The position numbers and the translations under genes are program-made. Positions 8,083 to 29,507 of a stretch of 45,390 nt of DNA are shown piece by piece. Each line of letters opens with the position of its first letter. Positions within the stretch are counted from its first letter, which is position 1. This DNA is from Gammaproteobacteria bacterium (GTDB taxonomy: Bacteria; Pseudomonadota; Gammaproteobacteria; SZUA-229): assembly GCA_024277705.1 (NCBI GenBank), contig JAJRUQ010000100.1, positions 1 to 45,390 on the forward strand, read 5' to 3'. The notes below the pieces were generated by a model, which saw only the letters and a program-made list of their open reading frames with translations, did no database searches and had not been told where the DNA came from.

Positions 8083-8150
8083 GGGGTCGGAGTCAATTTA
8101 ACCGGCTCACGCCACAACACACTATCTTTGTTAAAATTGACTCCGGCCCC
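8083..8150. repeat. REP-like hairpin, repeat family 2, copy 1
   Basis: GGGGTCGGAGTCAATTTAA at 8083-8101 pairs with TTAAAATTGACTCCGGCCCC at 8131-8150, leaving a loop of about 30 nt. A second copy lies at 18878-18946. It sits between the convergent 3' ends of the GGDEF/EAL gene and clpB. Such hairpins often accompany REP-associated tyrosine transposases encoded elsewhere in a genome; no such gene is in this window. Confidence 0.8.
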
Positions 8151-15755: not shown

Positions 15756-17393
15756 GTGCCAAAATACCCGTCCAACAATTTACAAAGCGACACTTTCCAC
15801 AGCACACCGGATGACTGGTATCGCCTGCGTCTGTTTAATTATTTCCGTGGCTCTCTGGCACTTTTTTTTATTGCCCTGTATTTAAACGGCTGGCTGGTGC
15901 AACTGATACCGGCCAGCCGGTTTCACACTGAATTATTTATTACCACGTCAATCCTTTATTTAATTGCCAGTATTTTTTTTATCACGGGTATTATCCGGCA
16001 AAAGCCGGGATTGCATACTCAGGTTATTGTACAGACCCTGATTGATATCTCCTGCATCATCATTTTAATGCACGCCACTGGTGGCATTAGAAGTGGCCTT
16101 GGCATGTTGTTAATTATAACAACCTCTATGACCAGTCTGTTTTTACATAAACGTGTCACCATTTTTTTTGCCGCAGTTGCCGCCATTGCGGTCATCGTGG
16201 AACAAATTTATTCACAGTTCCTGGACGTAAAATATTCACCTGCATTTACCCAGGCAGGTCTGCTGGGTATTTTAATTTTCATTTCTGCATTATTAACGAT
16301 ATACACAACAAGAAAGCTGAAAGAGTCTGAAAAACTTGCCGAACAGGCCAGTGCAGAACTGGAAAATATTATACAGATGAATGAACACATCATTCGCAGT
16401 ATGCGCACAGGTATCATCGTAATAAAAAATAACGGTGATATTATTATGGCAAATAACGCCGCCCTGGAATTACTGGGTAACATTAAAGTTGATACACAAA
16501 CAAACATCAAAGACATATCCATAAACCTTTATAAGCGCTTCATTGACTGGAATAATTTTTCTGTACAAAACCATCGGCCGATCGCTCAGCCACAAGGTCT
16601 GCCTGACCTGCAAACAGGTTTCAGCCATATTGAAAAAAGCGCACTGAGCAACAATAAAAACCAGGGGCGAACACTCATTTTCCTGGAAGATGCAACACAG
16701 TTAGCACAACGTTTTCAGCAGGTAAAACTGGCTTCACTGGGTCGACTGACAGCAAGTATTGCACATGAAATCCGTAATCCCCTGGCAGCCATCAATCATG
16801 CTGGACAACTGCTTGGCGAAACATCAACCGATGCTGCTGATAAAAAACTAACCTCCATCATCAATACCCAGGCTCTGCGTTTAAACCAGATTGTTGAAAA
16901 CGTACTGCAACTGTCCAGACAGCAGCGTGGCACACCTGAAGCAATAGATATTCAAGCCTGGCTTATACAGTTTTCCAAAGAGTTTTTATCTACCAATAAA
17001 CTTCAGGAACAACAGATGATTCTGCAAATCAAACCGGCAACGATAAAAATTTTATTTGACTCGGGTCAGCTACACCAGGTGATGTGGAATTTATGCATGA
17101 ACGCAGTCAACCATTCCGAACAGGAACTTACAGCCTTGAAAATCCAGATTACCGGCGCTATTGATAATAGTAGCAAACAACCCTATATCGATATTGCCGA
17201 CAATGGAATCGGCATAAACGAAGAAACACAGTCACATATTTTTGACCCGTTTTTCACTACCAGCGCTGAAGGTACCGGACTGGGTTTATATATCACCAAG
17301 GAAGTAATTGAAAGCAACCGTGCTAAGATACAGTATATATCACCGTCTGCAGGCGGTACCTGTTTCAGAATTTATTTCCAGCAGGCTCAATAA
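15756..17393 (+). CDS. pilS: Sensor histidine kinase PilS
   Basis: PilS is the membrane kinase that controls PilR and so pilin transcription. The 545-residue protein starts with GTG. About six hydrophobic segments span residues 28-185, a PAS-like region lies at about 205-315, and the kinase core follows. The phospho-acceptor is H337 in SIAHEIRNPLAAI, the N-box is near N449, and the ATP-lid glycines are DNGIGI (482-487) and GTGLGL (506-511). pilR starts 14 bp after the stop, so the two form an operon. Three runs of eight T lie in the membrane-coding part (from 15862, 15973 and 16162). Confidence 0.95.
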   Translation: MPKYPSNNLQSDTFHSTPDDWYRLRLFNYFRGSLALFFIALYLNGWLVQLIPASRFHTELFITTSILYLIASIFFITGIIRQKPGLHTQVIVQTLIDISCIIILMHATGGIRSGLGMLLIITTSMTSLFLHKRVTIFFAAVAAIAVIVEQIYSQFLDVKYSPAFTQAGLLGILIFISALLTIYTTRKLKESEKLAEQASAELENIIQMNEHIIRSMRTGIIVIKNNGDIIMANNAALELLGNIKVDTQTNIKDISINLYKRFIDWNNFSVQNHRPIAQPQGLPDLQTGFSHIEKSALSNNKNQGRTLIFLEDATQLAQRFQQVKLASLGRLTASIAHEIRNPLAAINHAGQLLGETSTDAADKKLTSIINTQALRLNQIVENVLQLSRQQRGTPEAIDIQAWLIQFSKEFLSTNKLQEQQMILQIKPATIKILFDSGQLHQVMWNLCMNAVNHSEQELTALKIQITGAIDNSSKQPYIDIADNGIGINEETQSHIFDPFFTTSAEGTGLGLYITKEVIESNRAKIQYISPSAGGTCFRIYFQQAQ

Positions 17394-17407: not shown

Positions 17408-18772
17408 ATGGCTATAACAACGAAAAAAGTACTCATTGTTGATGATGAAGCCGACATCTGCGAACTCATCGAAATTACGCTGATGCGTATGGACATCACC
17501 TCACAGTCAGCGCAAAACATCACTGATGCAAAAATCCTGCTTGATACAGAAAGTTTTGATCTGTGTTTAACGGATATGCGATTACCTGATGGTAACGGTA
17601 TAGAACTGGTGGAATATATTCAGGAAAATTTTGCAAGCCTGCCGGTTGCTGTCATCACTGCTCACGGTAATATGGAATCGGCGGTTAAATCATTAAAAGC
17701 CGGCGCCTTTGACTTTGTTTCCAAACCTGTCGACCTTCAAATTTTACGCAATCTGGTTGCCTCGGCAACAGCATTACCCAGTAACACAGACAGCAAAACA
17801 GAAAGCAAAACACCTGACAGTAACCTCATCAGTATTACCGGCAATTCACCTGCGGTACAGTTATTACTGAAAAACATAACAAAACTGGCACGCAATCAGG
17901 CACCTGTTTTTATTCATGGCGAGTCGGGTTCCGGAAAAGAACGCGTGGCACGCATGATACATCAGAGGGGACCGCGCGGTAATGGTCCTTTTGTACCGGT
18001 TAACTGTGGTGCGATACCTGCAGAACTGATGGAAAGTGAATTTTTTGGTCACTTAAAAGGTAGTTTTACCGGTGCACAAACAGACAAAGAAGGTTTATTC
18101 CAGGCCGCCAGTGGCGGCACCCTGTTTCTTGATGAGATAGCTGAACTACCCTTGAATATGCAGGTAAAACTGTTACGAGCTATTCAGGAAAAAGCGATAC
18201 GTACTGTTGGCGGATCACATGAAAAACCAGTAGATGTCAGAATATTAAGTGCCAGCCATAAAAACCTGGTACAACTGGTAGCCGACGGCATTTTTCGTGA
18301 AGATCTCTATTACCGGATCAATGTTATCGAGCTGAGCATTCCCAGCCTGCGTGAAAGAAAAGAAGATATTCCGCTGTTTGTCGAACAGCTGCTCGACAGC
18401 CTGGCAAAAAAAATGGGCATGGATGTACCGGATATTGATGATGACTCCATGACCGCATTACAGGATTATCACTTCCCCGGCAATGTTAGAGAACTTGAAA
18501 ATATACTGGAACGGGCTATCGCCCTCTCCGATGAAAGCACTATTCACAAACAGGATTTACATTTAAAACCAGCAGCTGACAGTTACCAGGCAATTGATAA
18601 TGACGCGCCTGCAGAAACCACTGTAGACCCGATGGATCTAGCCGGTCAGGAACGAAACAGTATTATACAGGCACTGGAACAGACCCGCTGGAACAAAACG
18701 GCAGCAGCAAAACTGCTGGGATTAAGTTTAAGACAACTGCGTTACCGCCTGCAAAAACTTGATATCGAATAG
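17408..18772 (+). CDS. pilR: Sigma-54-dependent response regulator PilR
   Basis: PilR activates pilA from a sigma-54 promoter. The 454-residue protein has a receiver domain with acidic D12/D13, phospho-acceptor D56 and K106. An AAA+ domain carries Walker A GESGSGKE (171-178), the sigma-54 contact loop GSFTGA (218-223) and Walker B LFLDE (239-243). A Fis-type helix-turn-helix ends the protein (KTAAAKLLGLSLRQLRYRL). Two sigma-54 promoters ahead of pilin genes at 25026 and 25955 are the obvious targets. The sulfatase-fold genes in between could be further targets, but no -24/-12 site was recognised there. Confidence 0.96.
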   Translation: MAITTKKVLIVDDEADICELIEITLMRMDITSQSAQNITDAKILLDTESFDLCLTDMRLPDGNGIELVEYIQENFASLPVAVITAHGNMESAVKSLKAGAFDFVSKPVDLQILRNLVASATALPSNTDSKTESKTPDSNLISITGNSPAVQLLLKNITKLARNQAPVFIHGESGSGKERVARMIHQRGPRGNGPFVPVNCGAIPAELMESEFFGHLKGSFTGAQTDKEGLFQAASGGTLFLDEIAELPLNMQVKLLRAIQEKAIRTVGGSHEKPVDVRILSASHKNLVQLVADGIFREDLYYRINVIELSIPSLRERKEDIPLFVEQLLDSLAKKMGMDVPDIDDDSMTALQDYHFPGNVRELENILERAIALSDESTIHKQDLHLKPAADSYQAIDNDAPAETTVDPMDLAGQERNSIIQALEQTRWNKTAAAKLLGLSLRQLRYRLQKLDIE

Positions 18773-18830
18773 TTGCTAACAAAACTCTGAACAAGTCATA
18801 AGCAACAAAGTCACCATGGCGTCTATGACC

Positions 18831-18876
18831 ACCATTGAGCCTTAAGAGAAGTTGTAAGTTGTAAGTTTAAATATTC
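18831..18876. repeat. Truncated copy of hairpin repeat family 1 (copy B)
   Basis: The sequence ATTGAGCCTTAAGAGAAGTT followed by GTAAGTTGTAAGTTTAAA is one outer end of the family 1 repeat; compare the complement of 20990-21018. The core and the other arm are missing. The break falls where the family 2 hairpin begins at 18878, so this looks like a half-repeat cut off by that element. Confidence 0.7.
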
Positions 18877-18877
18877 A

Positions 18878-18946
18878 GGGGTCGGAGTCATTTTTAAACG
18901 CTTACTAACGGTCATGCTGTGTTAGTTATTAAAATGACTCCGACCC
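18878..18946. repeat. REP-like hairpin, repeat family 2, copy 2
   Basis: GGGGTCGGAGTCATTTTTAA (18878-18897) pairs with ATTAAAATGACTCCGACCCC (18927-18946). Relative to copy 1 at 8083-8150 the stem changes from CAATTT/AAATTG to CATTTT/AAAATG, so both strands changed together and pairing is kept. It sits between pilR and the first sulfatase-fold gene. Confidence 0.8.
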
Positions 18947-19060: not shown

Positions 19061-20821
19061 ATGAATAAACTCAATAAGCTGTTTGTCTGGCATATCGCTA
19101 TCGCATTTATCATCATCAGCGTGTTTGTTTATCATTATGCAAAGCCTTTCAACATTATCGTATTGCATACGATGTTGATCAGCAGTTTGTACACTCTGGC
19201 ATTTTACACAGCACGGCTTATTTCTCGCCTACACAGGCCCGCCTTCAAATTTGTTGCGCCGCTGCTGTTTACCTTGCTAACAACCATTCTGCTGTTTATT
19301 TATACCACAAATTTTTTATCCAATGCCTTCTGGAACAATAATGTTTCACTGGCGTTTATCATCACTTATCTTTCCGATATAGACAACGTATTAGAGGAGG
19401 TTCCCTTTGCCGTTGAAACCCTGCTTGTTCTTACTGCTTTAATCGTTATCGTCATCTACCGGCTGTATAAAAAACATGCTCTCTACCTGCAGACATTTGA
19501 TGACCGGCTAAAACGTAAAGATTCAAAAATATTCTTTTTCATTACCACCATAACACCGGTCTATTTATATTTTAGTTTTTCACCCACCTATCCCGGTATC
19601 TGGGATGGTGAACCATTAACCAGTCTCGCCCTTAAAACTAATATCATCAGTTATCTCATTAATACCAATGAAGACTTCAGCTTTAACGATAACGCCTCAG
19701 ACACGCTTAATCCTGAATTAAAAAACATTATCCTGATCCATGCCGATGCACTACGGGCAGATCATATGTCCAGCTATGGCTATACCAGAGACACCACACC
19801 GTTTATCTCCTCACTGCTTGGTCAAGGAGCGACACAGATAGAGATGGGATTATCAATCTGCTCCGAATCACTCTGCGGCATGATGGCAGCACTCGGTTCG
19901 CGGCATATTGATGCTATCGGCGCTGACACGCTACTGATCAACGGTTACCTGAAACGCGAGGGTTACCGAACATTTTTTGCCGGTTCAGGAAATTTTTCCT
20001 GGGGTCCGATGGACAGTATCTTTGCCCATGACATCGATTATTTTGCCAGAGCCGACCTTGATGAAAACTTTACTATCCACGATGACAGCATCATCTTATC
20101 AGCCATTTCAAAGATGCCGGCTTATGAAGGCGTACCGACTTTTTTCTTTTTGCGTTATATGTCTTCGCACCCTATTGGCCGCCACTTTTCACAGTTCCAG
20201 CAATACACACCCGCAGAAAAAAACCTGCTTACCTACGTTTTTCCGGCGTTTGCCGACCCGGACATCCTGCTTAATGCTTATGACAACTATGTACTTCAGC
20301 TGGATGATTTTGTCCACAGAACAGTAAATCTGCTGGCGCAAAAAGGTTACCTGGAAAACAGTATACTGGTTATCTATGGTGACCATGGTGATGCCTTGAA
20401 TGAACACGGCTATTACGGGCATTACCATAACCTGCACCAGGAAGAAATTCACGTACCCATTATTTTTGTAAGTAATAACAGTGATGTGATTCAGGAAAAA
20501 TTTTACGCAACCCTGAATGATATTTTACCAACCATCTTTGAAATGAATGGCCTGCTGGTACCTGCAGGTATTGAAGGGATATCACTGCTCAATAAAACGG
20601 CTGACAGGATTACTTATCATGACAGCCGCACCGGTGTATACGCTGCGGTGCAGAAAAAAGATAAATTAATTTATAAATTTATTTATAACAGTAACAACAA
20701 TGAAAAATCGCTGTATAACCTGAGCAATGATCCACTGGAGATTAACAATCGCTACAACGAAGAAAAACAACGCGCTGAATTATTGCTGCATAAAATAAAA
20801 CACCAGTTCAAACTTGACTGA
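19061..20821 (+). CDS. Membrane sulfatase-fold transferase/hydrolase, paralogue 1
   Basis: The 586-residue protein has about five N-terminal membrane segments (approximately 8-26, 31-54, 63-84, 118-136, 156-173), then an alkaline-phosphatase/sulfatase-type domain on the far side of the membrane. Metal-site motifs are visible: HADALRADH with D229, and YGDHGDALNEHG with D441 and H442. The nucleophile region reads GLSICSESLCG (263-273), with a Ser or Cys where LtaS and EptA have Thr. The closest well-known relatives by architecture are phosphoethanolamine and phosphoglycerol transferases. It is a close paralogue of 23122-24885, with the same MNKLNKL start and PGIWDGEP motif. The location between pilR and pilA suggests surface or pilin modification; the substrate is unknown. 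Confidence 0.85.
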   Translation: MNKLNKLFVWHIAIAFIIISVFVYHYAKPFNIIVLHTMLISSLYTLAFYTARLISRLHRPAFKFVAPLLFTLLTTILLFIYTTNFLSNAFWNNNVSLAFIITYLSDIDNVLEEVPFAVETLLVLTALIVIVIYRLYKKHALYLQTFDDRLKRKDSKIFFFITTITPVYLYFSFSPTYPGIWDGEPLTSLALKTNIISYLINTNEDFSFNDNASDTLNPELKNIILIHADALRADHMSSYGYTRDTTPFISSLLGQGATQIEMGLSICSESLCGMMAALGSRHIDAIGADTLLINGYLKREGYRTFFAGSGNFSWGPMDSIFAHDIDYFARADLDENFTIHDDSIILSAISKMPAYEGVPTFFFLRYMSSHPIGRHFSQFQQYTPAEKNLLTYVFPAFADPDILLNAYDNYVLQLDDFVHRTVNLLAQKGYLENSILVIYGDHGDALNEHGYYGHYHNLHQEEIHVPIIFVSNNSDVIQEKFYATLNDILPTIFEMNGLLVPAGIEGISLLNKTADRITYHDSRTGVYAAVQKKDKLIYKFIYNSNNNEKSLYNLSNDPLEINNRYNEEKQRAELLLHKIKHQFKLD

Positions 20822-20873
20822 TCTCCACTGTACAGTGTACACAGCCACCGGCTTGTTAGTAGATTAATGACTC

Positions 20874-21028
20874 AAACCGGCCATTAAGAGAAGTTTTAAG
20901 TTGTAAGTTTAAAAACATAAACCAAAAGAAGCTTGTTAAACATAAGGTTATCCAGTTTTTGACTTGCTACTTACAACTTAAAACTTACAACTTCTCTTAA
21001 GGCTCAACAACGGTCGTTAAACCGGTTT
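20874..21028. repeat. Hairpin repeat family 1, copy C
   Basis: The most complete copy. The outer inverted ends are AAACCGG (20874-20880) and CCGGTTT (21022-21028). Inside them TTAAGAGAAGTTTTAAGTTG (from 20884) pairs with CTTACAACTTCTCTTAA (to 21000). The conserved core lies at about 20911-20970. It separates the convergent sulfatase-fold genes at 19061-20821 and 21047-22735. Confidence 0.85.
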
Positions 21029-21046
21029 TGTTTGAACAACTACATC

Positions 21047-22735
21047 CTATTGCTGCGATAAGCCCTGCTTCATTATGCGAATGTAGTCTTCGTTAACTGC
21101 CGCCTGAACTAGCGTGTTGTGTTGGGTATTTTCATGCATATAACGACATTCATTTTGCTCACAAAACTTACCCTTATATAAGGCATTGAGAACAACCTGA
21201 AATATATCATGGTGCTTTATTTCTGGAAGAGGCATCAGCTGCTGATTATTGATCACGAAAACCATGGTTTCATGATATTTTTCTGAGCGATTACTTTCTG
21301 TAACTGCCGAATACCCCAGTGATTCATACATTAACTCACCGGTGGTTAATGGCGGCAGGTGATCGCCTACCACAACTATCAATCCCTCTGGATCAATCTC
21401 CTGCAACGTTTTGATGTGTTTTTTAAGTGCCTCAACGCGATAATATACCTGGTTCAGCAAACGATTAGCCTCATCATCAATATTCTCGATGTGAATAACA
21501 TCTGGCCTTGCTGTTTCGTTGCGGGCAAAGGGATAATGTCCATAGGTAGTTAATACATAATTTAATACCGGCTTACCCTTGCGCATTTGTTGTTTTAGCA
21601 TGGCAATATTCTGTTCATACAACGACTGATCGTATAACCAGCCACCGGGAGCATCATCAAGCTTCAGGCCGCCATAACTGAGACTGTATTCATCTGCAAA
21701 TTTTATTTCAGAAAAACCCAGTGTTTTATAGGCCTTGATACGATTATAATAATTTGGCTTGTAGGGGTGCGATGCTATGGTTGTATAACCGTAGTCATTC
21801 AGTATTTTTGGCAGACAGTCAACAGGTCGTTCACCACTGAATACATTAAATTCAATGGCCCCCAGTAACTGCAGCGATGGCAAACCACACAGAATTTCAA
21901 ACTCCGACCTTGCCGTACCATTACCAAATCCCGGTGCCAGGGAAACACTGCTTTGCTTGAATATCGGGCTGTCAAAAGCCTTTAAATAGGCACCACTCAA
22001 ATTAATATTCTGAAAGTTTCTGACATCAATAAAACTCTCGAAAATAATAACATGGATATTCTGGCGCACTTGTATTTTATCGGGCAGTACCAGATGTCGA
22101 CCGGATGCAGTACCGTCATTGACCACATTATACTGTTGAATTTTCTCCAGTTGTTTTTTTCGCTCATTTTCAAAAATAAAGGCCGTAGACAGAGGACCAT
22201 ACTCGGCAACAACATGTTCATGCGAAAAATCCTGCAAATACAGATTGCTATAGACCCGATTACTTACCACATTAATGCTTGTTATTAAAATCAGACACAG
22301 TAAGAACACTGCAGGATAAATAACATGTCGATACCGCCACTTTCTACGGATATTGCTGGCAATCAAAATAAATGGTGACAACGCCACAAGCACAAGTCCT
22401 GATGCCTTGGCTGGTGGTAGAACATCCAGAAACTCGGGAAATAGCAAAATATCCTGGAACTTTATAACACTGCCAAACTGCAGCAGGTTAACTTCATAAA
22501 CAGCATAATAAGCCAGCAATGGCAGCAGGGCGTAAATTTTGGCGCGGAGATTATCCTGCTGTATCTGTTTGAAAAAACCGTAAAAGGTAATCAATAAGAA
22601 TGTTTCTACCAGTGAATAACCAGACTGTCCATACAACAGTGTTTCCTGATAGTTTTTTGATGAAACATAAACAACCAGTGCAAACAACAGAATCAACAAC
22701 CCGCTGCCGCGAGTCATCATATAGGTTTTTAACAT
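21047..22735 (-). CDS. LtaS/MdoB-type membrane phosphoglycerol transferase family protein
   Basis: This enzyme belongs to the sulfatase-fold group that includes lipoteichoic acid synthase and the glucan phosphoglycerol transferase MdoB. Hydrophobic segments fill about residues 12-160, and an extracytoplasmic catalytic domain follows. In numbering from the upstream ATG at 22741, the LtaS-type active site is complete: metal ligand E235 (VIIFESF), nucleophile T276 in GNGTARSEFE, YGHYPF with H402, and D460-H461 in VVGDHLPPL. The inner ATG at 22735 is chosen because AAGGAAG lies at a proper distance from it and too close to the outer ATG. It is inverted between the two paralogous sulfatase genes. 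Acceptor unknown; a glycan or a pilin is possible. Confidence 0.87.
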   Translation of the reverse strand: MLKTYMMTRGSGLLILLFALVVYVSSKNYQETLLYGQSGYSLVETFLLITFYGFFKQIQQDNLRAKIYALLPLLAYYAVYEVNLLQFGSVIKFQDILLFPEFLDVLPPAKASGLVLVALSPFILIASNIRRKWRYRHVIYPAVFLLCLILITSINVVSNRVYSNLYLQDFSHEHVVAEYGPLSTAFIFENERKKQLEKIQQYNVVNDGTASGRHLVLPDKIQVRQNIHVIIFESFIDVRNFQNINLSGAYLKAFDSPIFKQSSVSLAPGFGNGTARSEFEILCGLPSLQLLGAIEFNVFSGERPVDCLPKILNDYGYTTIASHPYKPNYYNRIKAYKTLGFSEIKFADEYSLSYGGLKLDDAPGGWLYDQSLYEQNIAMLKQQMRKGKPVLNYVLTTYGHYPFARNETARPDVIHIENIDDEANRLLNQVYYRVEALKKHIKTLQEIDPEGLIVVVGDHLPPLTTGELMYESLGYSAVTESNRSEKYHETMVFVINNQQLMPLPEIKHHDIFQVVLNALYKGKFCEQNECRYMHENTQHNTLVQAAVNEDYIRIMKQGLSQQ

Positions 22736-22741
22736 GCTCAT

Positions 22742-23121
22742 ACTTCCTTATATAACGAAGAAATTAAATATTTACGGGAAAAAGCTACTTTATTCTTAGT
22801 AAACATTTTTTCAATTAGCAAGTAAATAACCATCTTTAGGATATCTGTCATCTCGACCAGCGTGAGAGATCTTTAAAACGCCTGCGCAAATACAGGCTCA
22901 GGATTACTCGTCATATTGCTGCAATAACACAGCAATACTCTGTCGCCATGACACTAACATCTTGCACTGAAGGACATGGTTTTTACTGGCGTACTGCTAA
23001 TAATCGACAAAATTGCTGGCTAACTGTATTAGATGGCGGTTTTTTACAGAATGAAAATAGTCCTATACTCTATTGACTGAAAACAGTACAGCTCCAGGCA
23101 ATACAGAATATCACTCCCTAT
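22742..23121. other. 380-bp intergenic region with no recognised gene
   Basis: This gap carries the upstream regions of the LtaS-type gene (minus) and of paralogue 2 (plus). The segment 22848-22877 (GTCATCTCGACCAGCGTGAG then AGATCTTTAA) resembles a scattered palindromic repeat seen in other bacteria, but only one copy is here. A frame stays open from about 22842 to 23076, with one ATG at 22948 giving 42 codons. It has no ribosome binding site and no recognisable family. Promoters must lie here, but none is convincing. Confidence 0.5.
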
Positions 23122-24885
23122 ATGAATAAACTAAATAAGCTTTTACTGCCGCATATTTTTATAGCATTTCTTATAATCAGCTTGTTTACCACCGTCTATT
23201 TCAGGTCTTTGTATATTATTACCTTGCATGTTGGCATCATTACCAGCCTGTATATTACTGCTTTTTTTATTTCCCGAATATGGAAAAAACAGTTTAAGCA
23301 TATATCCATTCTGATCTTCAGCAGTTTAAGTACACTGTTAATCCTGCTGTACATTATCAATTTTTTATCCAATTATTTCTGGAATGACAATGTATCACTG
23401 CAGTTTATTCTTGTTTTTCTGCATGACCTGTCTGCTGTACTTGAAGACATACCTTACGGTACAGCTATTCTTGCCTCACTGACTATCTTTATTTTTATTG
23501 CTAATTTCTACCTGTATAAAAAATATTGCCCTTATTTACAGGTATATGACAATACCCTGGGCATACAGCATACTCGGATATATATACTGGTTACGGTAGC
23601 AACACTGATATTTTTCTCACAGACCTTCACTCCGGACAACCCGGGGATCTGGGACGGTGAACCGGTAACCAGCCTCGCCATAAAATCCAATACAATCAGC
23701 CACATGGTTGATGAGCATAAAGAAATAATCTTTGATAAAAGTAGCGCTAAAACAAACCGGCAACTGCAAAATGTTATCCTGATACACGCCGATTCCATAC
23801 GTGCCAGCCACATGTCCAGTTACGGTTATAAACGAAACACCACACCATTTATTGATTCTTTAATAAAAGAGAATGCAGTTCAGATAAAAACAGGTTTGTC
23901 TATATGTTCACAGTCGGTCTGTGGTATTTACTCCGCGCTGACCTCAAAACATGTTGATTCAGTCAACGTTGATACACCATTGATACACAGCTATTTGAAA
24001 CAGGCCGGATACAGAGTGGTCGTTTCCGGTTCCGGCCACTTGTCCTGGGACAATATTGATACCGTCATCCTGAAAGATACGGATCATGTTGACAGAGCTG
24101 ATCATATTAAAAACATTCCATTAACCGATGACAGTATTATTTTATCTACCCTGTCAAGAATGCCACACTATGATGGCGTACCTACCTTTTTCTTTTTACG
24201 CTACATGTCATCACATGTTGCCGGCAGACATTATTCTCAGTACATGAAGTACACCCCTGCTATCAAAAACATACTGACTTACCTGTTCCCGGCACTGGAT
24301 GATCCTATGATTACTGTCAATGCCTATGACAATTTCACTGTGCAACTGGATGACATGGTTCGCAAGTCGATAGAGCTACTTGAAGATAAAGGTTATATAG
24401 AAAACAGCATTATTATTATTTACGGTGACCACGGCGAAGCCTTGAACGAGCACGGTTATTATGGCCACAACCACAAGCTTTATCAGGAGGAAATTCATGT
24501 GCCTATCATCTTTGCTGGTAACCGGCTACCAGCCTTTAAAGAAACAGAATTTGCCACGCTGGACGATATCCTGCCGACGATTCTCGACATACTTTCTCTG
24601 CCACTACCTGACGATATTGATGGTGTCTCCCTACTCAAAAAATATAAAAAACGATACACCTATCATGACAGCCGAACCTCTTCGGTATATGCCATTGTAG
24701 AAAAAAATGAGTCTACCCTCTACAAACTGATGATTAATACCCAGTTGAAACAAGTCTGGCTGTTTAACCTGACGCAGGATCCAGAAGAAAAACACAACCT
24801 GGTCAACAGCAACCCTGAAAAGGTTAATGAACTGATAAAACGATTAAACACACGCTTTAAGCTGTCCTGGCATCAGGAAAAATAA
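23122..24885 (+). CDS. Membrane sulfatase-fold transferase/hydrolase, paralogue 2
   Basis: A 587-residue protein collinear with the one at 19061-20821. It has the same MNKLNKL start, the same number of membrane segments and the shared NPGIWDGEP motif. Metal-site motifs are HADSIRASH with D224 and YGDHGEALNEHG with D436-H437. The nucleophile block GLSICSQSVCG (258-268) keeps the Ser, both Cys and the CG of paralogue 1. Differences are spread evenly through the protein, so the duplication is not recent. Its stop lies about 140 bp before the pilA sigma-54 promoter. The same modification role is proposed; no biochemical function can be assigned from sequence alone. Confidence 0.85.
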   Translation: MNKLNKLLLPHIFIAFLIISLFTTVYFRSLYIITLHVGIITSLYITAFFISRIWKKQFKHISILIFSSLSTLLILLYIINFLSNYFWNDNVSLQFILVFLHDLSAVLEDIPYGTAILASLTIFIFIANFYLYKKYCPYLQVYDNTLGIQHTRIYILVTVATLIFFSQTFTPDNPGIWDGEPVTSLAIKSNTISHMVDEHKEIIFDKSSAKTNRQLQNVILIHADSIRASHMSSYGYKRNTTPFIDSLIKENAVQIKTGLSICSQSVCGIYSALTSKHVDSVNVDTPLIHSYLKQAGYRVVVSGSGHLSWDNIDTVILKDTDHVDRADHIKNIPLTDDSIILSTLSRMPHYDGVPTFFFLRYMSSHVAGRHYSQYMKYTPAIKNILTYLFPALDDPMITVNAYDNFTVQLDDMVRKSIELLEDKGYIENSIIIIYGDHGEALNEHGYYGHNHKLYQEEIHVPIIFAGNRLPAFKETEFATLDDILPTILDILSLPLPDDIDGVSLLKKYKKRYTYHDSRTSSVYAIVEKNESTLYKLMINTQLKQVWLFNLTQDPEEKHNLVNSNPEKVNELIKRLNTRFKLSWHQEK

Positions 24886-25025: not shown

Positions 25026-25042
25026 CTGGCACGGTCACTGCA
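25026..25042 (+). promoter_or_regulatory. Sigma-54 promoter of pilA1
   Basis: CTGGCACGGTCACTGCA matches the -24/-12 consensus TGGCACG-N4-TTGCA. GG is at 25028-25029 and GC at 25040-25041, separated by exactly 10 nt. Transcription would start near 25053, leaving a leader of about 77 nt. PilR, encoded upstream, is the expected activator. Confidence 0.92.
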
Positions 25043-25129: not shown

Positions 25130-25567
25130 ATGAAACAAACACAACAAGGTTTTACATTAATCGAATTAATGATCGTAATCGCTATTATCGGTATTCTGGC
25201 ATCAGTGGCATTACCTGCCTACCAGACCTATACCAAAAAAGCTAAATTTACAGAAGTTATTCTGGCTACCAGCCCGGTCAAAACTGCTATTGATATCTGT
25301 ATTCAACGTGGTGATTCTATCTCTGCCTGTGCTGATGGTGGTACCACTTCTGCTGGTAAAGCTGTTAAAGGTTCACTGACCGGTGCCGCTGATGCAACTA
25401 ACGTTAGTTCAATTTCTGTGGCAACAAGTTCAGGCAACATTACTGCTACCGGTACTTCTGCAGTTGACGGCAAAACTTATGTTTTAGAACCTTCAGTAAC
25501 AAGCAATAATTCTGTTACCTGGGTTGTTGGTACAAGCAGTACATGTTTAAGTGCTGGTTTATGTTAA
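25130..25567 (+). CDS. pilA: Type IV major pilin PilA (first copy)
   Basis: A type IVa pilin of 145 residues. The leader MKQTQQG is cut by PilD before F8, and E5 of the mature protein is present (FTLIE). The hydrophobic assembly helix spans about 8-34. Four cysteines, C57, C67, C139 and C145, allow a C-terminal disulfide loop with C145 as last residue. GGAGAG precedes the ATG. Codons are biased to T-ending forms (GGT, GCT), as expected of a very highly expressed gene, unlike the second pilin. A strong terminator follows, so it is probably monocistronic. Confidence 0.96.
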
Positions 25568-25954: not shown

Positions 25955-25971
25955 TTGGCACAAAACCTGCT
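25955..25971 (+). promoter_or_regulatory. Sigma-54 promoter of pilA2
   Basis: TTGGCACAAAACCTGCT has GG at 25957-25958 and GC at 25969-25970 with exactly 10 nt between, and keeps the TGGCAC core. Transcription would start near 25982, about 60 nt before the ATG at 26042. The second pilin therefore has its own PilR-type promoter. Confidence 0.87.
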
Positions 25972-26041: not shown

Positions 26042-26479
26042 ATGAAAAAACAGCAGACAGGTTTTACACTCATCGAATTAATGATTGTTATCGCTATCAT
26101 TGGTATTCTGGCTTCCGTGGCCTTACCCGCGTATCAAACCTATACCAAAAAAGCCAGATTTTCTGAAGTTGTCCTGGCCACCGATACTGTCAAAAGAGCC
26201 ATAGAGCTTTGTGTGCTGTACAATGCTTCATTACCTGATTGTGCCGATGGTGGCACCACCGCCGGTGGCAAAACAGTGGCAGCATCCATCACCGGCGCGG
26301 CTGATGGTAATAATGTCAACAGCGTCAGCGTTGCCACAACCAGCGGCAAAATAACCGCACTGGGTACCGCTACTGTTGATTCCAAAAATTATATATTGGT
26401 ACCAAGTGTGACAGCGAATAACGCCATCACCTGGAGCCTGGATCCTAACAGCACCTGTTTAACCGCCGGTTTATGCTAA
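26042..26479 (+). CDS. pilA: Type IV pilin PilA-like (second copy)
   Basis: A second 145-residue type IVa pilin. Its first 38 residues are almost the same as in the first copy, and the four cysteines are in the same places (C57, C67, C139, C145). The middle differs (residues 40-70 and 100-140), where exposed loops are expected. PilD would cut between G7 and F8. CAGGG precedes the ATG. Codons are less biased, with more GGC and GCC than in the first copy, which suggests lower or conditional expression. It may be an alternative or minor pilin. Confidence 0.93.
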
Positions 26480-26508
26480 ACGTTCGTTGCGGAATGGATG
26501 CCCCACAT

Positions 26509-26647
26509 CGGCCATTAAGAAAAGTTGGCAGTAAAAAGCAAAACCATGGCTTACGCCACAAAGCACGTGGGTTTTTAGCTTTTATGTTTTTAACTGCCTA
26601 CTGCAAACTGATAACTGCCAACTTCTCTTAAGGCTCAATGACGGTCG
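26509..26647. repeat. Hairpin repeat family 1, variant copy D
   Basis: The outer ends match copy C: CGGCCATTAAGA at the left and TTCTCTTAAGGCTCAATGAC at the right. The inside is different. TTAAGAAAAGTTGGCAGT (26515-26532) pairs with ACTGCCAACTTCTCTTAA (26614-26631), and an inner stem AAAAGCAAAACC pairs loosely with GGGTTTTTAGCTTTT. It lies between the convergent pilA2 and tfpZ genes. Confidence 0.75.
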
Positions 26648-26672
26648 TTTAACCTCGGTGCCGTGTCCGTGA

Positions 26673-27404
26673 CTACAGGGCTTGCATTGCAAGAATGCTG
26701 CCACTCTCATCCATCAATAATACTGCCTTTTTATATTTTGCGGTCAGCAGTATGGCATAAACCTTTCGTCCGGCAGAGTTGTTTTCAAGTTGTCTCTGTT
26801 TTTCCCTGATAGCGCTATTGAGCGAATCATCTGCCAACTTATATGAAAAAATATCCTGCAAATACTGATGATAATTTCTAAACAGAGGATACTGGGCATA
26901 AGGCGGAATGCTTTTATAAACCAGTTCAGTCATGGCGGCTAATTCCAGTTGATTCTCCGGCTTGTGCGCATAAATAATGAGCGGCTGGTTTGAATCAAAC
27001 ATCTGTAACTGTTGTTTTGAAATATTCTGTTGATCAAAATAATCCTGGGTAACCGTGTAAAAGGTGTTTTCCCAGAAAACCAGTGCTACCGGACGTTCGG
27101 AATAGACCTGCACCCCCCCCCAGACTAATGCTCCGATTTGCATGATGGCGATCAGTGATAAATCAAAAATTATTTCTTTTTTTGTCTTCAAATGATTAAA
27201 AATAATAAAGGTTAAACTTGGCCCCAATACCAGGTCAACCGCTGCCATCAGTTTAATCCCGTCCCAACCGCCTTCGATTTCAAAAAAAATCCCCGGATAC
27301 CATTGCTCCAGGATTAAGTACAAAACCCCCAGAAATATAATGACACTGATAGAAAAGTGTATCCCGGATGCTTTCAGTTTTTCTTTTATTAATTCAGCTG
27401 ACAT
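26673..27404 (-). CDS. tfpZ: Type IV pilin accessory protein, TfpZ/FimB-like
   Basis: A 243-residue membrane protein resembling the TfpZ-type pilin accessory family, known next to pilin genes in Moraxella, Pseudomonas and Acinetobacter. Family features include an early GIHFSISVIIF helix, WYPGIFF, the signature AAVDLVLGPSLTFIIF (54-69) and a third helix near 80-98, followed by a soluble C-terminal part. CAGGT precedes the ATG. Relatives have been linked to assembly or stability of particular pilin types. The gene is inverted between pilA2 and pilB. It contains a run of nine G in the coding strand (27113-27121), which encodes part of W95-G-G-V98. Confidence 0.82.
   Translation of the reverse strand: MSAELIKEKLKASGIHFSISVIIFLGVLYLILEQWYPGIFFEIEGGWDGIKLMAAVDLVLGPSLTFIIFNHLKTKKEIIFDLSLIAIMQIGALVWGGVQVYSERPVALVFWENTFYTVTQDYFDQQNISKQQLQMFDSNQPLIIYAHKPENQLELAAMTELVYKSIPPYAQYPLFRNYHQYLQDIFSYKLADDSLNSAIREKQRQLENNSAGRKVYAILLTAKYKKAVLLMDESGSILAMQAL
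27113..27121 (-). repeat. Nine-G homopolymer tract inside tfpZ
   Basis: On the coding strand TGG GGG GGG GTG forms a run of nine G. No other G or C run of this length was noticed in the window. Gain or loss of one base by slippage would shift the frame at residue 95-98 and remove the soluble C-terminal part. Tracts of this kind drive phase variation of pilin-modification genes in Neisseria. Confidence 0.7.
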
Positions 27405-27791: not shown

Positions 27792-29507
27792 ATGGCGGCA
27801 GAAATAAAACTCAACGGTCTACCACGCAGGCTGGTACTTGATGGTTTACTGGAAGAAGAAACAACCATCAATGCACTTAAGGCCTCCATCAAGGAAAAAG
27901 TTTCGTTTACCCGTTATCTGGTCAATAATAAAATTCTACCGGCAATAACCATTGCCATCGAGGCATCAAAAGAATTCGGCCTGCCGGTTTTCGATCTTAA
28001 TGCGATTGATCTTGAAACAGTACCACGTGATATTGTTGACGACAAACTCATCCAGAAACACCATGCCTTACCCCTGTACAAACGCGGTAACCGTTTATAC
28101 ATCGGCATATCTGACCCGACAAATCTTGCCGCCACCGATGATATCAAATTTCAAACCGGGGTTAATACCGAAGCCGTACTGGTAGAAGAAGACAAGTTGA
28201 GCGCCATGGTTGAAAAACTGCTGGAAGAGCAGGAAAGCGCCATGGATGAAATGATGGGCGATGACATGGAGGATCTGGATGATCTGGATTTTTCCGACCC
28301 GGATGCCGAACAAAAAGAAGATGAAAGCAGTTCCGAGGTGGATGATACTCCTGTTGTACGTTTCATCAACAAGATTTTACTGGATGCTATCAAAAAAGGC
28401 GCTTCCGATATTCACTTTGAACCTTATGAAAAAATCTACCGGGTACGCTTACGCATCGACGGAGTCTTGCGTGAGGTCGCCAGACCACCGGTCACCATGA
28501 GTCCTAAACTGTCTGCGCGTATCAAGGTTATGTCGCGCATGGACACGGCCGAAAAACGAGTTCCACAGGACGGACGCATTAAATTAAAAATATCCAAAAC
28601 CAAAGCCATTGATTTTCGTGTCAATACCTGCCCCACTCTGTTTGGTGAAAAAATTGTATTACGTATTCTTGACCCGTCAAGTGCCTCACTGGGCATTGAT
28701 GCCCTGGGTTATGAGGCCGACCAGAAAGAACTGTATCTCAAAGCACTGGCCAACCCGTACGGCATGATTCTGGTAACAGGCCCTACCGGCAGCGGTAAAA
28801 CGGTATCCTTATATACCGGACTGAATATCTTAAATACAGTTGACACCAACATTTCAACCGCAGAAGATCCGGTCGAGATAAATCTCGAAGGCATCAATCA
28901 GGTGAATGTTAATGAAAAAGTCGGTTTAACTTTTGAATCAGCTTTACGCGCTTTTTTACGTCAGGATCCGGATATCATCATGGTCGGTGAGATTCGAGAT
29001 CTGCAAACTGCCGAGATTGCTATAAAAGCAGCGCAAACCGGACACATGGTAATGTCAACCCTGCATACCAACGATGCACCACTGACACTGGCTCGACTGG
29101 TCAATATGGGCGTACCTCCTTTTAATATTTCATCGGCAGTCTCTTTAATCATTGCACAACGACTGGCCCGCCGCTTATGTAACAACTGTAAAATGAAAGT
29201 TGACATCCCTCGTCCGGCGCTGGAAGAAGAAGGCTTTACTGCAGAACAAATCAATGAAAATCCGGATCTGTACAAAGCAGTTGGCTGCGATCAATGCAGC
29301 GATGGTTACAAAGGGCGTGTTGGCATTTACCAGGTGATGCCAATATCCGATGAAATCGGCCGGATTATCATGAATAACGGCACAGCAATTGATGTTGCTG
29401 ACCAGTCTCAAAAAGAAGGTATCGCTAATCTGCGGCAATCAGCAATTAAAAAAGTGGTTGCCGGATTAACCAGTCTCGAAGAAATTAATCGCGTTACCAA
29501 AGATTAA
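27792..29507 (+). CDS. pilB: Type IV pilus assembly ATPase PilB
   Basis: PilB powers pilus extension. The 571-residue protein has an N-terminal MshEN/N1 domain, which in related ATPases can bind c-di-GMP. A very acidic linker follows (about 145-185), then the ATPase core with Walker A GPTGSGKT (330-337), Walker B-type IIMVGEIRD (395-403) and STLHTND (422-428). A zinc site is formed by C463, C466, C499 and C502. AGGA lies six bases before the ATG. It starts the pilB-pilC-pilD-coaE-zapD run. Confidence 0.97.
   Translation: MAAEIKLNGLPRRLVLDGLLEEETTINALKASIKEKVSFTRYLVNNKILPAITIAIEASKEFGLPVFDLNAIDLETVPRDIVDDKLIQKHHALPLYKRGNRLYIGISDPTNLAATDDIKFQTGVNTEAVLVEEDKLSAMVEKLLEEQESAMDEMMGDDMEDLDDLDFSDPDAEQKEDESSSEVDDTPVVRFINKILLDAIKKGASDIHFEPYEKIYRVRLRIDGVLREVARPPVTMSPKLSARIKVMSRMDTAEKRVPQDGRIKLKISKTKAIDFRVNTCPTLFGEKIVLRILDPSSASLGIDALGYEADQKELYLKALANPYGMILVTGPTGSGKTVSLYTGLNILNTVDTNISTAEDPVEINLEGINQVNVNEKVGLTFESALRAFLRQDPDIIMVGEIRDLQTAEIAIKAAQTGHMVMSTLHTNDAPLTLARLVNMGVPPFNISSAVSLIIAQRLARRLCNNCKMKVDIPRPALEEEGFTAEQINENPDLYKAVGCDQCSDGYKGRVGIYQVMPISDEIGRIIMNNGTAIDVADQSQKEGIANLRQSAIKKVVAGLTSLEEINRVTKD

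Follow-up and report, generated by a model that had tools for sequence, protein, structure and literature searches.

This study focused on the interval between the regulator gene pilR and the first pilin gene, pilA1, in a 45,390-nucleotide stretch of DNA (the window) from a member of the Gammaproteobacteria. The gap is 6.4 kb long (pilR ends at 18772 and pilA1 starts at 25130), and its sole content is three membrane proteins, all complete and all with the sulfatase/alkaline-phosphatase fold, designated here SulA, SulB and SulC. A preliminary description of the DNA had proposed this content, and it is borne out: the three open reading frames (ORFs) are intact and all match Pfam Sulfatase (PF00884) far over the cut-off, with E-values of 7e-34, 3e-18 and 2e-35, respectively. 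SulA and SulC may act on the pilins encoded beside them, and most of what follows concerns this pair. The genes of the locus are:

15756-17393, plus strand: pilS, with pilR a two-component regulator of the pilin genes (6TM_PilS and HisKA matches; kept in genus mates).
17408-18772, plus strand: pilR, partner of pilS in that regulator (Sigma54_activat and HTH_8 matches; kept in genus mates).
19061..20821, plus strand: SulA, 586 amino acids (aa), a membrane domain and a sulfatase-fold catalytic domain with C267 at the nucleophile position (ORF, PF00884, motif alignment, structural model).
21047..22741, minus strand: SulB, 564 aa, of the GacH/LtaS-like phosphoglycerol-transferase type with a Thr motif, its membership of the pilus system doubtful (ORF, PF00884, GacH match, neighbours of its relatives).
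23122..24885, plus strand: SulC, 587 aa, a SulA paralogue with the motif CSQSVCG (ORF, PF00884, identity to SulA).
25130..25567, plus strand: pilA1, type IV pilin, proposed acceptor (N_methyl and Pilin matches).
26042..26479, plus strand: pilA2, type IV pilin, proposed acceptor (N_methyl match; Pilin just below the cut-off).
26673..27404, minus strand: tfpZ-like gene for a type IV pilin accessory protein (NCBIfam NF041437, E 3e-36, under the family cut-off).
27792..29507, plus strand: pilB, pilus assembly ATPase, the downstream border of a variable stretch (assigned from sequence and gene order; 84–92% identical to the genus-mate genes where these are complete).

SulA and SulC are paralogues, with 51% identity along their whole length, and sequence comparison detected no closeness of SulB to either, placing it in another subfamily. 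The idea that the three enzymes form one unit had to be abandoned, because SulB lies on the opposite strand and the pilin genes have sigma-54-like sites of their own; strand and spacing together rule out a single operon. The two sites are:

25027..25042, plus strand: sigma-54-like site with one mismatch, 88 bases upstream of pilA1.
25956..25971, plus strand: sigma-54-like site with two mismatches, 71 bases upstream of pilA2.

A pattern scan of the window placed no such site upstream of SulA or SulC. The pattern is no commoner in the window than chance would have it (16 found, 20 expected), so that position alone argues for the pilA1 and pilA2 sites. The mature forms of PilA2 and PilA1 are 68% identical. 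Ser and Thr are abundant in PilA1 (0.30) and ordinary in PilA2 (0.23; mean of other pilins 0.20, standard deviation 0.05), and the content of potential acceptor residues therefore supports no conclusion.

All three enzymes keep their metal ligands, as had been described. In SulA, residues D229, D441, H442, H370 and H454 align with E240, D452, H453, H383 and H465 of EptA (numbering from PMC10525099), so that every metal-site position is retained, the one substitution being the Asp at D229 for the Glu of EptA. The nucleophile is a different matter. Correcting the preliminary description, the position is held in SulA and SulC by a Cys and not by the Thr of EptA and LtaS: in an alignment that included EptA-type and sulfatase relatives, C267 of SulA falls on the Thr of EptA and on the formylglycine Cys of sulfatases. 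The local motifs are CSESLCG in SulA, CSQSVCG in SulC and CAESTCG in their one further relative, a protein of genome G400. None of the three has the CxPxR motif that formylglycine formation requires (CSESL, CSQSV and CAEST). On motif, then, SulA and SulC are ruled out both as members of the EptA/PptA family and as formylglycine sulfatases. C267 is the putative nucleophile, and a Cys serving there in the absence of CxPxR would be unusual chemistry for the superfamily.

Five hydrophobic helices were predicted in SulC and in the G400 protein, as in EptA, and four over the threshold in SulA. A structural model of SulA, built from 22 sequences, has a mean predicted local distance difference test (pLDDT) score of 72, reaching about 90 over most of the catalytic domain; its N-terminal membrane helices are present at low confidence. 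A helix begins at C267, the usual nucleophile position, and pLDDT falls below 50 at residues 268-273, immediately after it. Searched with Foldseek, this medium-confidence model gave a sulfatase fold with a C-terminal part (E 2.5e-16). In SulA and SulC, then, a membrane domain like that of EptA is joined to a catalytic domain like that of sulfatases, and the residue in the nucleophile position is an unusual one.

The family is extremely rare. About 870 different proteobacterial genomes were examined (genome numbers up to G874); the large searches scored just the best few candidates per genome, so that the count may be a few members short. Searched among relatives, SulA gave no match in a second genome at E 1e-20, and in 369 genomes of the class it matched only in G400 (E 7.5e-45) and G359 (E 1.1e-22), the latter protein being excluded from the family because it carries a Thr motif. 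The three sequences (SulA, SulC and that of G400) were combined into a profile, which recovered this genome and G400 only when run against 398 genomes of the phylum, 97 of G400's family and eight of its genus. A contig scan with two N-terminal peptide patterns returned one distant sulfatase and says little.

G400 belongs to another family within the same class, and its Sul protein is 25–26% identical to SulA and SulC over the full length. The locus there reads pilS, pilR, pilin, pilin, methyltransferase, Sul, pilB, pilC, pilD, with the Sul start overlapping the methyltransferase stop by eight bases. The chance of one gene landing in the 5.3 kb between pilR and pilB in this 5.7 Mb genome is about 1 in 1,000. 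The control set comprised 109 pilR loci (60 class-wide, 40 from G400's family and nine made up of eight genus mates and G400), of which 62 had a recognised pilin and 38 had pilB; besides G400, none of the 109 had a sulfatase-fold gene near a pilin. The control is silent for most loci of G400's family, where neither pilin nor pilB lay within the 16 kb read. A single sulfatase-fold match occurred about 9 kb from pilR in locus L149, and a pilin was not found there. A genome survey had been suggested to see whether these enzymes track with the pilin genes, and for SulA and SulC a link to the pilus is supported by the one other genome, where the gene sits between the pilins and pilB.

The methyltransferase of G400 probably makes phosphatidylcholine. 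Among class I methyltransferases it stands nearest to PmtA: its best NCBIfam model is PmtA (NF045882, E 8.5e-36; next model, E 9e-17), and it matches the solved phosphatidylethanolamine N-methyltransferase 8ys9 at E 6.7e-33 (next structure, 2.5e-11). Against the identification as PmtA, it scores 124 bits for a cut-off of 390, in a model built on Legionella sequences.

Because the family recurs at a pilin locus in G400, SulA and SulC are best read as pilin-directed phospho-group transferases, PptA-like in action but outside the PptA family; this is put forward tentatively, its probability lying close to an even balance without reaching it. The two proteins would sit in the inner membrane with the catalytic domain toward the periplasm. 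They would strip a phospholipid of its phosphate-linked head group, which is most likely either phosphoethanolamine or phosphocholine, the methylated form of the former. An active-site residue at the metal site would then carry the group until it is passed to Ser or Thr of the neighbouring-gene pilins, which wait in the inner membrane. The phospho-forms of Neisseria pilin are a known precedent (PMC10434233, PMC4010543). This proposal is built on intact genes, their fold, metal-site residues and membrane domain, the recurrence in a distant genome and the PmtA-like overlap there; from these we infer transfer rather than hydrolysis, the nature of the head group, the nucleophilic role of the Cys, and the pilin as acceptor.

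A bolder version, which we regard as improbable, holds that SulA and SulC are a separate family of pilin-modifying transferases using an unmodified Cys nucleophile, and that in G400 the genes for the phosphatidylcholine-making enzyme and for the transferase form one unit within the pilus cluster, phosphatidylcholine being the direct donor of pilin phosphocholine. According to a 2014 study, no case had been established in which protein or lipopolysaccharide is modified in this way from the head group of phosphatidylcholine (PMC4010543), and a 2023 survey still called the phosphocholine donor pathway unidentified (PMC10434233). The lipid source of pilin phosphocholine is thus an open question, for which the G400 locus, with its PmtA-like and Sul genes beside the pilins, offers a direct genetic test.

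Several observations weigh against pilin-directed transfer. The recurrence in G400 is a single independent one, not a statistic over many, and SulA and SulC are apparently not co-transcribed with the pilins. The genome's own best match to the G400 methyltransferase (C94:9060-9647, E 3.3e-20) is weak by PmtA score, common to most genus mates and away from the pilus locus; it does not establish phosphatidylcholine synthesis in this organism. The remaining points concern the enzymes themselves. The Thr nucleophile of the EptA/PptA motif (CGT-S/A-TA type) is replaced by Cys in SulA, SulC and the G400 protein, and that Cys aligns with the one in sulfatases. Over about 470 columns, the solved structures that best match the SulA model are S1 sulfatases, which include choline-sulfatases; MCR-1 follows closely; a weak SGSH_C match lies in the C-terminal part, over the cut-off in SulC only; and in the tree the three proteins form a separate clade (100/98), outside the EptA clade and next to sulfatases with moderate support. 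The catalytic domain of SulA is at least as sulfatase-like as it is EptA-like. These latter features would suit the main competing explanation, that SulA and SulC are membrane-anchored hydrolases of sulfatase or phosphodiesterase type, which transfer nothing but trim a glycan, on the surface or linked to the pilus, or else a compound derived from a phospholipid. CxPxR is, however, missing from every family member, and SulA and SulC have a multi-helix membrane domain, which is typical of phospho-group transferases and untypical of sulfatases. We consider hydrolysis rather unlikely.

The surroundings bear on a third explanation. Genus mates with a readable pilR-pilB locus carry no Sul gene there, and differ in pilin number, pilin orientation and TfpZ; in one of them (G012, L051:2617-10791) what lies in the pilR-pilA gap is a gene resembling transposases and one for an RHS-repeat protein of 1696 aa. 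On this third view SulA and SulC would act on lipid A or some other part of the envelope, and their place beside the pilus genes would be fortuitous or reflect a stretch prone to gene uptake. Its variability within the genus, the RHS and transposase-like genes of that one mate, and the repeats flanking SulA would all fit. The sole other family member, however, likewise lies beside pilins, and the genome already carries an EptA-type gene elsewhere (C121); this explanation also appears unlikely.

Two kinds of repeat were seen. One, containing AACTTCTCTTAAGGCTCAA, has exactly three copies in the window, each lying close to Sul or pilin genes, and the genus mates' pilus loci do not have it:

18827-18868: copy before SulA.
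20867-21023: copy between SulA and SulB.
26498-26654: copy between pilA2 and tfpZ.

The other consists of hairpin-like pairs of GGGTCGGAGTCA, at 18879-18946 and 8084-8149 and with further copies elsewhere in the genome (L201, L204); these look like repetitive extragenic palindromic elements. Third-position G+C of SulA, SulB and SulC (0.41–0.46) equals that of the flanking genes, leaving recent acquisition from a compositionally different donor unsupported; a donor of similar composition may have been involved, as genus mates lack the Sul genes. Candidates for a phage or plasmid origin were limited to weak sulfatase or MCR/EptB-type matches, none spanning 80% of the query, and the viral contigs searched gave zero Sul matches.

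Some unrelated features of the pilR loci may be recorded here. The PmtA-like match in L190 is weak and belongs to an ordinary methyltransferase. A protein of 610–670 aa adjoins the pilin in the pilR-pilB intervals of L120, L124, L137, L142, L146 and L190; Pfam gave it no match or a weak TPR match only, and these proteins are possibly a pilin glycosyltransferase family.

SulB retains the Thr nucleophile and the E and D-H metal residues (GNGTARSEF, ESF and VVGDH, aligned with GacH). Its nearest solved structure is the phosphoglycerol transferase GacH (E 9e-9), and it scores 41 bits against the NCBIfam LtaS model, for a cut-off of 970. Relatives at E 1e-30 or better occur in 16 other genomes of the class. 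None of the 16 has pilR, pilA or pilB within about 8–10 kb on each side (less at contig ends), and six lie within about 1.5 kb of a glucan synthase-like (NdvB-like) gene. The six are at L059:6053-10371 and in L082, L085, L087, L089 and L091; in both of the adjoining glucan synthase-like genes that were tested the GT2 domain was clear, and GH17 was matched in one. NdvB of Pseudomonas aeruginosa, with GH17 and GT2 domains, produces glycerol-phosphorylated beta-glucans, the transferase having been merely suggested (PMC10237404). The SulB relatives next to NdvB-like genes are thus candidate phosphoglycerol transferases of NdvB-type beta-glucans.

For SulB itself, a glucan acceptor is the likelier one because of these neighbourhoods, and its predicted role is more likely that of a glucan or polymer phosphoglycerol transferase; its link to the pilus is weak, and it is not clearly part of the SulA/SulC system. 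All three might instead form one pilin-modifying set, SulA and SulC adding phosphoethanolamine or phosphocholine and SulB phosphoglycerol. N. meningitidis pilin receives both kinds of modification, through PptA and PptB (PMC10434233, PMC8445170), and the GacH relationship of SulB and its place between SulA and SulC would agree with this. The distribution of its relatives, its opposite strand and the lack of any SulB match at the G400 locus point the other way, and such a set is very unlikely. Of the original suggestion, the portion concerning SulA and SulC is thereby fairly well supported by the G400 recurrence, that concerning SulB poorly, and the set of three unsupported; the pattern that was to refute it, relatives away from pilus genes and tied to other polymers, is partly seen for SulB.

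Set beside known systems, SulA and SulC would resemble the Neisseria pilin phosphoethanolamine/phosphocholine transferase PptA (a class XI phosphoethanolamine transferase) in proposed reaction, topology, metal-site positions and proposed pilin acceptor, but they differ from it in having Cys for Thr, a sulfatase-like catalytic domain with a C-terminal part, and genes within the pilus cluster. With the lipid A phosphoethanolamine transferases EptA and MCR they share EptA-like N-terminal helices and the metal ligands (D/E, D-H and two more His), yet together with the G400 protein they lie outside the EptA clade and lack its Thr motif. The S1 formylglycine sulfatases, such as choline-sulfatase, have the same catalytic-domain fold, C-terminal part and Cys position, whereas SulA and SulC have no CxPxR and do have a membrane domain. 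SulB, finally, shares the Thr motif and membrane helices with the phosphoglycerol transferases GacH, LtaS and OpgB, GacH being its nearest solved relative; it is nevertheless distant from them, and the gene context of its relatives points to glucans as the acceptor.

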